32,023 bases of DNA from the IMG/VR virus record IMGVR_UViG_3300022074_000211, positions 1-32,023 of that record. One strand, written 5' to 3'. The translations under genes and the position numbers were made by a program. Positions 18,819 to 32,023 of this stretch are shown here, one piece after another (positions within the stretch are counted from its first letter, which is position 1; every line of letters starts with the position of its first letter). The stretch is from a virus. The notes under the pieces are model-generated. The model did not search any database. It had not been told where the DNA came from and saw only the letters and a program-made list of their open reading frames with translations.

Positions 18819-19380
18819 TGGTGAATCACGAGAAGGATTTGATTACAGATCAAATTATTCAGATGCATTTGTCATAGGATGTAATGGTGCTTATAAAGAA
18901 TCAATAGATGCATTAGTATGTACCGATGCTTATATGCAACATCTGATTTATGAAACAGGATATTGTAAAGATCATTTATGCTTCTTTAGTGAATGGAATC
19001 CAATACCAGATTATGCAGTTGAAACAATAGCAGCTTCTTTCAATAAACCAATTATACAAAATGAAAAAATTTATAGTACCAGTGCTCAGGTAGCAGGAAG
19101 TGATGATTATGTATATGTCACATGGGTACAAAAAGAAGATATGGTTCGTTCTATCAAAGAAAAGATAATGTCATCTGGTTCAAGAGCATTAGAATTAGCA
19201 TGTAAGATGGACTTTGATGAAATTCTATTATTAGGATTTGATGGAATGGGAGCACAAAATATTTACCAAAAAGATAAAGGGTATGAAAGATCAACACCTA
19301 GAGAAGAATGGGTGGAAGAACGTAGATTAATTATAGAGCAATATTCTCATATAAATATAATAGATTTACAAACTGGTTAA
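18790..19380 (+). CDS. GT42 / DUF115-like protein (possible glycosyltransferase)
   Basis: A 196-residue protein. The N-terminus R-A-I-I-L-G-N-G-E-S-R-E-G-F-D-Y, then V-I-G-C-N-G-A-Y, and later S-G-S-R-A-L-E-L-A and E-I-L-L-L-G-F-D-G-M, follow the layout of GT42 sialyltransferases and DUF115 proteins (G-N-G-P-S-L ... C-N ... S-G ... G-x-D). The identification is by pattern and tentative. If it is a transferase it could belong to the DNA-modification block further down. The tRNA-Ala gene begins two bases after its stop codon. Confidence 0.5.
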   Translation: MTTRAIILGNGESREGFDYRSNYSDAFVIGCNGAYKESIDALVCTDAYMQHLIYETGYCKDHLCFFSEWNPIPDYAVETIAASFNKPIIQNEKIYSTSAQVAGSDDYVYVTWVQKEDMVRSIKEKIMSSGSRALELACKMDFDEILLLGFDGMGAQNIYQKDKGYERSTPREEWVEERRLIIEQYSHINIIDLQTG

Positions 19381-30667: not shown

Positions 30668-30696
30668 TTGACAAAATCTAAAGTCTCTGTTATTAT
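30668..30696 (+). promoter_or_regulatory. Sigma70-type promoter upstream of the 30729 gene
   Basis: TTGACA at 30668-30673, a 17-base spacer, then TATTAT at 30691-30696 preceded by TGT. It overlaps a late-type TATAAATA, so the two start sites would be a few bases apart. Confidence 0.5.
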
Positions 30697-30701
30697 AAAT
30701 A
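30694..30701 (+). promoter_or_regulatory. Probable late promoter (TATAAATA) for the 30729 gene
   Basis: An exact TATAAATA lies 27 bases before the ATG, followed by a GGAGA ribosome site. It fits the proposal that the 30729 and 31817 products are virion proteins. Confidence 0.6.
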
Positions 30702-30728
30702 GAAATAGTAATATTAAATGGAGATACA

Positions 30729-31820
30729 ATGAAAAGGTTTAAATCTTTTATTTACGAAGCCAGCCTATCTGGCAAAACAACTAAATACAAAGATAACACG
30801 GGTGCGTGGTATCAGTATGTCGAGTTGAATCCAGAATTAAAAACATTAAAGCTAGAAAATGATTCATTTTTATTTGAATTAGATGGAACACCAACAAAAA
30901 CCGTATTAAAGAAAGGTACTGAATTAGAAATTGTTGGAAGAGAAGTGAAAACACTGCTAGATTCATCAAGATCAAAATTAGCACATATGAAATATAAAGG
31001 TAAAGACTATAGAGTACCTACTAGCAAATTACTTAAACCTTCAGGTAAAGAGGTTGCACCAATTGAAGCAGACCTAACACAAAAAGAGAATCCAGGTGTA
31101 TTTACAAACTTCAAGGCAGGGCATGGTCATGAAGGTCAATTCATTCAAAGATGGATTAATAGTTCTGGTACCCTTTGGGAATTTGAATATAAAGGTAAAG
31201 AATATCGTATAACAAATCTAAGTGCACCTACTACAAAAACCGTTGGTAATCCAAAGACAGATGTAGTAGTTGAATTAGATAAAAAAATACCGGGCCTAGG
31301 TAATAAACTTTATTATAGTTTGAAAGATGCTAATGCAACATACTTTGAAAACTGGATATTACCAAAAAGATTCTTTCAAATATTTGGTAGCTCATCTAAA
31401 AAGATTATAGAAAATGCTTATGAACAATTGAATAAGAATAACAAGATAGGAAGGTCAGGTTATAAATCAGTATCAATTTGCCCTTTTGTTAAGAGTAAAC
31501 CATATAACCATACTAAACTATCTAAGAGTCAAAACATAGAAGTATTATCCGGCGCAAATAAGTTTGGTAAAACTGATGCAACTGCAAATTGCTTTTTTGC
31601 TGGTACAGTACCAGAAACTATTGCAGAGATTATTGATGGTACTATATCAGTAAAAGATATGGCTGGAAAGATTAATGTCGGTTTAGATTTTAGAGGCTCA
31701 AACGATATTAAGAACTCATCAGTCTTTATTAAGAATGACGAAGGTGGCTGGGATATAAGAGAAAACTGGATTGGAAGAGGTGAACTAAAACTAGATAAAA
31801 GCATGGGACAAAGTAAGTGA
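30729..31820 (+). CDS. Putative capsid-targeted internal protein, possible PD-(D/E)XK nuclease
   Basis: A 363-residue protein of unknown family. The N-terminus M-K-R-F-K-S-F-I-Y-E-A resembles T4 capsid-targeting sequences (M-K-T-Y-Q-E-F-I-A-E-A). The I-x-E of the gp21 protease cleavage consensus falls at residues 8-10 in both, so cleavage after E10 is predicted. Two SH3-like segments contain Y-K-G-K-(D/E)-Y-R. In the middle, E135 in H-E-G-Q-F-I-Q-R-W, then N-P-K-T-D-V-V-V near 174-181 and Y-Y-S-L-K near 195-199 could form a diverged PD-(D/E)XK site. Late-type promoter context agrees with a packaged protein. The nuclease reading is weak. Confidence 0.6.
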   Translation: MKRFKSFIYEASLSGKTTKYKDNTGAWYQYVELNPELKTLKLENDSFLFELDGTPTKTVLKKGTELEIVGREVKTLLDSSRSKLAHMKYKGKDYRVPTSKLLKPSGKEVAPIEADLTQKENPGVFTNFKAGHGHEGQFIQRWINSSGTLWEFEYKGKEYRITNLSAPTTKTVGNPKTDVVVELDKKIPGLGNKLYYSLKDANATYFENWILPKRFFQIFGSSSKKIIENAYEQLNKNNKIGRSGYKSVSICPFVKSKPYNHTKLSKSQNIEVLSGANKFGKTDATANCFFAGTVPETIAEIIDGTISVKDMAGKINVGLDFRGSNDIKNSSVFIKNDEGGWDIRENWIGRGELKLDKSMGQSK

Positions 31821-32023
31821 TAAGATTTTCAAACTATATATCCGAAGATGCGCATGAACTAATTTTCACGCCACAAGATGATCTGAAAGAACCAGATTAT
31901 GATGATATAGAAATATTTAAAGATAATTGGGTTAAAATAAAATTACCAACACCACCACGAGAAGATCGTGAAATAGATGCTGTGATTGATGCAGCCAATA
32001 CAGCCACAGATGAACAAAAAGCT
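31817..32023 (+). CDS. Putative capsid-targeted protein, 5' part (cut by window edge)
   Basis: A GTG-started frame overlaps the previous stop (GTGA) and stays open for 69 codons to the window end. Its N-terminus, M-I-R-F-S-N-Y-I-S-E-D, places I-x-E at residues 8-10, the same position as in the 30729 protein and in T4 capsid-targeting peptides. The rest seen is acidic and proline-containing. The frame continues past the window. Confidence 0.65.
   Translation, partial: MIRFSNYISEDAHELIFTPQDDLKEPDYDDIEIFKDNWVKIKLPTPPREDREIDAVIDAANTATDEQKA

Follow-up and report, generated by a model that had tools for sequence, protein, structure and literature searches.

Two consecutive genes at the end of a 32,023-base marine virus record (IMGVR_UViG_3300022074_000211; the whole of this stretch is referred to here as the window) quite probably encode internal proteins packaged in the phage head, belonging to an operon of enzymes that carry a capsid-targeting sequence (CTS), are cleaved by gp21 and are delivered to the next host. 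Packaging by means of a T4-type tag is well supported by comparative evidence, and we infer packaging and cleavage in this particular phage, together with injection. In the proposed mechanism, a late promoter would drive the operon, whose products would bear an N-terminal capsid-targeting sequence of 10 to 12 residues; the tag would bind the scaffolding core during head assembly, the prohead protease gp21 would cut it off after Glu, and the enzymes, freed of the tag, would be kept alongside the DNA inside the head and pass together with it into the next host. Among the cargo would be a restriction-endonuclease-fold protein, a soluble PAP2 phosphatase, a ligase-like DUF6267 nucleotidyltransferase and an NMNAT-like cytidylyltransferase, with the nuclease acting at the outset of infection, most likely on host or competing DNA. 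A first-pass annotation of the window, made from the letters alone, had read both proteins as head-packaged and injected and the first as a possible nuclease; this reading is supported and extended here, and the parts of it that were open to testing came out in its favor.

Locus and operon

The window holds the T4-type genes UvsW, gp46/47, gp45, gp44, gp43, UvsX and gp41 (named by reading of the open reading frames [ORFs]), and the phage is a marine T4-like phage, a relative of T4. A second record, IMGVR_UViG_3300017739_000004 (G1), overlaps the window from position 18834 onward; the 13,190 overlapping bases contain 16 mismatches (99.9% identical), and G1 was therefore taken to represent the same phage population. 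It extends the tagged locus past the window end. Neither contig covers the phage's own gp21 and gp23: judged by the gene order of the related contig G4, G1 stops shortly before gp20, and the window begins just past gp23.

Features of the tagged locus (window coordinates)
Feature	Position	Strand	Remarks
TATAAATA, T4-type late promoter element	30694..30701	+	35 nt before ATG of first tagged gene
Ribosome-binding site GGAG, first tagged gene	30720..30723	+	Read directly
Tagged 363-aa protein, ATG start, predicted SH3b-like and restriction-endonuclease-like	30729..31820	+	
Capsid-targeting sequence MKRFKSFIYE, residues 1-10, predicted cut E10/A11	30729..30758	+	
SH3b-like domain, approximately residues 31-106	30819..31046	+	Best Z 7.7, 2.5 Å over 61 residues
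Restriction-endonuclease-like domain, approximately residues 107-332	31047..31724	+	MspI and HinP1I structure matches
E135, invariant Glu on helix preceding nuclease sheet	31131..31133	+	Invariant in alignments of relatives
D178, invariant Asp of P-K-T/N-D	31260..31262	+	Alignments of relatives
S197-L198-K199	31317..31325	+	D178 to K199 is 21 residues, as HinP1I D62 to K83
Tagged PAP2-superfamily phosphatase, N-terminal 69 aa, GTG start	31817..32023	+	212 aa on G1; window end cuts ORF
Capsid-targeting sequence MIRFSNYISE, residues 1-10, predicted cut E10/D11	31817..31846	+	Resembles capsid-protein sites of relatives

The T4-type late promoter element TATAAATA does lie ahead of the first gene, as seen in the first-pass annotation, and is strand biased, occurring 10 times on the plus strand of the window and never on the minus strand (approximately four per strand expected). 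In relatives it precedes late genes, such as those for the portal, tail sheath and tail tube, and in G1, G2 and G4 it lies 30 to 35 nt ahead of the orthologous tagged gene. The GTG start of the second ORF overlaps the stop codon of the first. The full-length second protein on G1 matches PF01569 (PAP2; E = 2.4e-10) and contains the RP, PSGH and RxxxGxHxxxD motifs, and is by these sequence features a PAP2-superfamily phosphatase.

Downstream on G1 are a 119-aa protein starting MRSFRKFWLEA, a tagged DUF6267 protein whose profile match starts at residue 12, right behind the tag, and an NMNAT-like/cytidylyltransferase-like protein starting MSIKSFSDYVVES, with further tagged proteins past the latter. 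KWDG is invariant in the DUF6267 protein, and RNA and DNA ligases recur at low Z among the best matches to its weak structural model (pLDDT 66). Thus, of the earlier description of two consecutive tagged proteins, the tagging of both stood, but the series does not end with them and goes on beyond the window. Since the same tag is present on these further enzymes, a whole set of enzymes is probably packed into the heads of this phage family and probably also carried into the host cell.

The tag, its protease and the capsid-protein site

The two products start MKRFKSFIYEA and MIRFSNYISED and match the T4 CTS at all four key residues (aromatic residues at positions 4 and 7, I8 and E10). In T4, residues 4 and 7 target the protein and residues 8 and 10 govern cleavage by gp21, and the N-terminal ten residues of IPIII are enough for packaging (PMC9026906). 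Positions 4 (F/L), 7 (F/Y), 8 (I), 10 (E) and 11 (A) of the first protein are fixed or conservatively replaced in its 16 distinct relatives, and positions 2, 3 and 6 vary. Residues 1 to 9 of the first protein were modeled at pLDDT <50, and the tag is common to otherwise unrelated proteins. To quantify its occurrence, the motif [FY]xx[FYW][ILV]xE was scanned within the first 16 residues of each protein, with the expectation taken from the interiors of the same proteins. The motif was found at the start of 8 of 118 genes on G1 (0.52 expected; P = 7e-8), 4 of 59 on G4 (P = 8e-6) and 5 of 76 on G5 (P = 1e-5), counts that use mechanical ORF calls and come from related, non-independent genomes. As a positive control, a similar scan recovered IPII and IPIII of T4; the motif is degenerate, and chance matches occur even in T4, where three further matches were noise. 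Key-residue matches, enrichment at gene starts and conservation together confirm the earlier proposal that both N-termini are of the T4 capsid-targeting type.

A search for a gp21 homologue, suggested as a check on that proposal, identified Peptidase_S77 proteins in three relatives (G2, G3 and G4), and in G2 and G4 the gene adjoins gp20, gp22 and gp23. At the presumed T4 cleavage region, gp23 of G2 and G4 reads QGNYISE/AA and QGNFISE/AA (slash, presumed cut), which we take to be the counterpart of FGSFLTE/A in T4 gp23. These capsid-protein sites, NYISE/A and NFISE/A, have the same pattern as the tag, and the second window tag itself reads NYISE. Both gp21 and matching gp23 sites, as expected for a T4-type CTS, are thus present in G2 and G4.

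The nuclease-like first protein

An AlphaFold2 model of the first protein with 30 relatives reached a pLDDT of 87.7. Its nuclease-like domain matched the structures of MspI (1sa3; Z 6.7, 4.9 Å, 165 aligned residues) and HinP1I (1ynm; Z 6.3, 3.9 Å, 149 aligned residues), scores in a range (Z <8) where, as the tool warns, a match can reflect a common arrangement; HinP1I 2fkc was also matched at E = 5.8e-3. Across the 30 relatives, G131, H132, E135, P175, K176 and D178 are invariant and S197-L-K199 nearly so, giving a conserved pattern of E135 and D178-X18-S-L-K199. The T-D-V-V-V and S-L-K strings from which a PD-(D/E)XK nuclease had been suspected are present at residues 177 to 181 and 197 to 199, and the predicted fold, put forward then as a check, is similar to that of restriction endonucleases, the D...SxK spacing being the one seen in HinP1I. 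The PD-(D/E)XK motif is found in relaxed form only, with Ser where canonical members have D or E; among Type II enzymes the motif is highly variable (PMC4081073). With moderate fold scores (Z 6 to 7) and an agreeing D178-K199 spacing, a nuclease fold is likely and nuclease activity plausible.

Neither of the two window sequences had a significant match in Pfam or PHROGs; a tblastn search with the first protein found nothing among phage isolates, and a search of genome contigs returned no relative. A single-sequence match to a capsid protein (PDB 7u94, E = 1.5e-4) was absent with the family profile and was dropped. When profiles were compared, the gene at the equivalent position in Melnitz/HTVC008M showed a single local match of 32 columns (P = 5e-4, probability 31%), and comparison with the cyanophage gene in the same position gave no match worth naming; homology to these positional counterparts is not claimed, as it would rest mainly on position and P-x-D...SLK. 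Neither GCGC nor CCGG is avoided in the window, G1 or G2, and there is therefore no hint of HinP1I or MspI specificity. Elsewhere, CCGG is strongly avoided in S-PM2 (0 sites), and GATC, CGCG and CCGG are strongly avoided in Melnitz.

In divergent relatives (L020-L024, L076, L082, L086, L087, L089, L090 and L093), an N-terminus of approximately 45 residues with KGYPD replaces the short tag. Most of them keep an E-A or similar junction, perhaps because it is cut there or because the structure requires it. KGYPDMNN is also present in a protein of a Flavobacterium phage (L097, 8001-9062), which carries a D...ExK pattern.

Tagged enzymes in virions and across relatives

Virion proteomes of two cyanophages bear on whether tagged enzymes stay in the head. 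In S-CREM2, the SAM hydrolase gp6, Cas9 (gp12), gp13, the kinase gp14 and the cytidylyltransferase gp154 were detected in virions (Table 3 of PMC10665884). As read from OR473000, gp6, gp13, gp14 and gp154 start MKDFDSFLEE, MKDLHSFLTEQ, VKRFDAFLTEE and MKNFSSFLTEA, respectively; Cas9 (L151, OR473000, 7704-10313) has the tag pattern RFASFMAEA approximately 20 residues in, and the neighboring genes encode a kinase and a small protein, both tagged. By our own ORF calls, 7 of 13 tagged S-CREM2 proteins were detected by mass spectrometry, against 43 of 183 untagged ones (one-sided P = 0.023), and many virion-detected cyanophage proteins have no tag. The NMNAT of S-SCSM1, likewise detected in virions (PMC9602691), starts MKSFLQFLKEA and is encoded within a series of genes for virion proteins, in the position that corresponds to the window operon. 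Carry-over in the CsCl-purified virions was left open by the authors of both studies (PMC10665884, PMC9602691). The phrase "capsid targeting" was absent from both papers in a full-text search of an incomplete collection, in which the T4 review was the sole hit, and earlier notice elsewhere is possible.

The tag might alternatively serve only for association with the core or scaffold during assembly, the proteins then being degraded or leaving the head, with no delivery to the host. Most T4 core proteins are indeed removed following gp21 processing (PMC9026906), but here folded catalytic domains stand behind the tags and tagged homologues were detected in purified, mature S-CREM2 and S-SCSM1 virions, which makes such a loss improbable. 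We give a similarly small chance to convergence, whereby the motif would be an amphipathic helix for some other interaction, with a membrane or a replication/repair complex. The motif is short, the tagged gene follows the replication genes UvsX and gp41, and the enzymes look nucleic-acid-metabolic; against this, the identity falls at the T4 targeting and cleavage residues, the same pattern recurs in the capsid-protein cleavage region of relatives, the promoter is a late one and tagged relatives were detected in virions.

A possibility of more weight, which we nonetheless consider rather unlikely, is that the first protein is packaged yet inactive as a nuclease, its fold being kept for DNA binding or for inhibition of host restriction, like IPI to IPIII of T4. 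The Ser that stands where an acidic residue is usual would fit this, and Ip1 to Ip3 all block Type IV restriction enzymes (PMC12373910); on the other hand, E135, D178, S197 and K199 show little or no variation among 30 relatives, and HinP1I, an active enzyme, has Gln at the Ser position.

Head-packaged enzymes with a cleaved tag would resemble several known systems in part. The window proteins share with T4 IPI, IPII and IPIII the N-terminal tag with its aromatic residues 4 and 7, I8 and E10 and the presence of gp21 (here in relatives), but the T4 proteins are small Type IV restriction inhibitors, whereas the cargo here would be nuclease-like, PAP2 phosphatase, ligase-like and NMNAT-like proteins of one operon. 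T4 Alt, an ADP-ribosyltransferase, is likewise a head-packaged and gp21-processed enzyme, as the window proteins would be, but is unrelated to them and has a 7-residue propeptide. Virion proteins of S-CREM2 and S-SCSM1 (NMNAT, Cas9, SAM hydrolase and APH-like kinase) share the tagged N-termini, the tagged S-CREM2 genes encoding mostly other enzymes than the window operon. HinP1I and MspI resemble the predicted fold at moderate scores and share the conserved E and D, and HinP1I also the D-X18-(Q/S)-X-K spacing; the window protein differs in having Ser at the Gln position and an extra SH3b-like domain, and no companion methylase was identified nearby.

The known CTS of T4 is read here as a general cargo tag for enzymes. 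On balance we favor the view that in marine T4-like phages an interchangeable tag, which some lineages carry on orthologous enzymes and others lack, loads the head with a set of nucleic-acid and NAD enzymes, nucleases among them and, in the case of S-CREM2, a Cas9, for delivery ahead of all phage gene expression. This would allow one to tell by a sequence rule which proteins are brought into the cell by T4-like phages, and it points to a naturally packaged protein that is predicted to be nuclease-like. T4 heads are already in use as protein carriers through the CTS tag, and a natural enzyme cargo is therefore of practical interest. The tag also offers an explanation for enzymes listed in cyanophage virions on whose presence the authors remained uncertain (PMC10665884, PMC9602691).

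In Syn1, S-PM2 and P-HM2, the cyanophages looked at first, the orthologues of these enzymes begin directly with the domain (e.g., MSKNTHLEHLED and MKKVYVTFGR) or are fused, whereas Melnitz, C48C1 and DLP6 have tags on some of them, and the tag thus appears to be an appendage that comes and goes. Most of the cytidylyltransferase matches listed start near residue 18. In the more distant G3, six consecutive ORFs (61961-64979; L047) start MDNFDLKKYLAEGRL or nearly so and then diverge, such that near-identical MDNFDLKKYLAEG tags head six successive ORFs of otherwise different sequence. Starts similar to these G3 tags (MENFDLKKFLVEN) were seen in Flavobacterium phage immuto. The annotated start of the phage C48C1 cytidylyltransferase (L053, 13685-15028) seems too internal, and an upstream in-frame start gives the tag MIKNFSQYLLEE.
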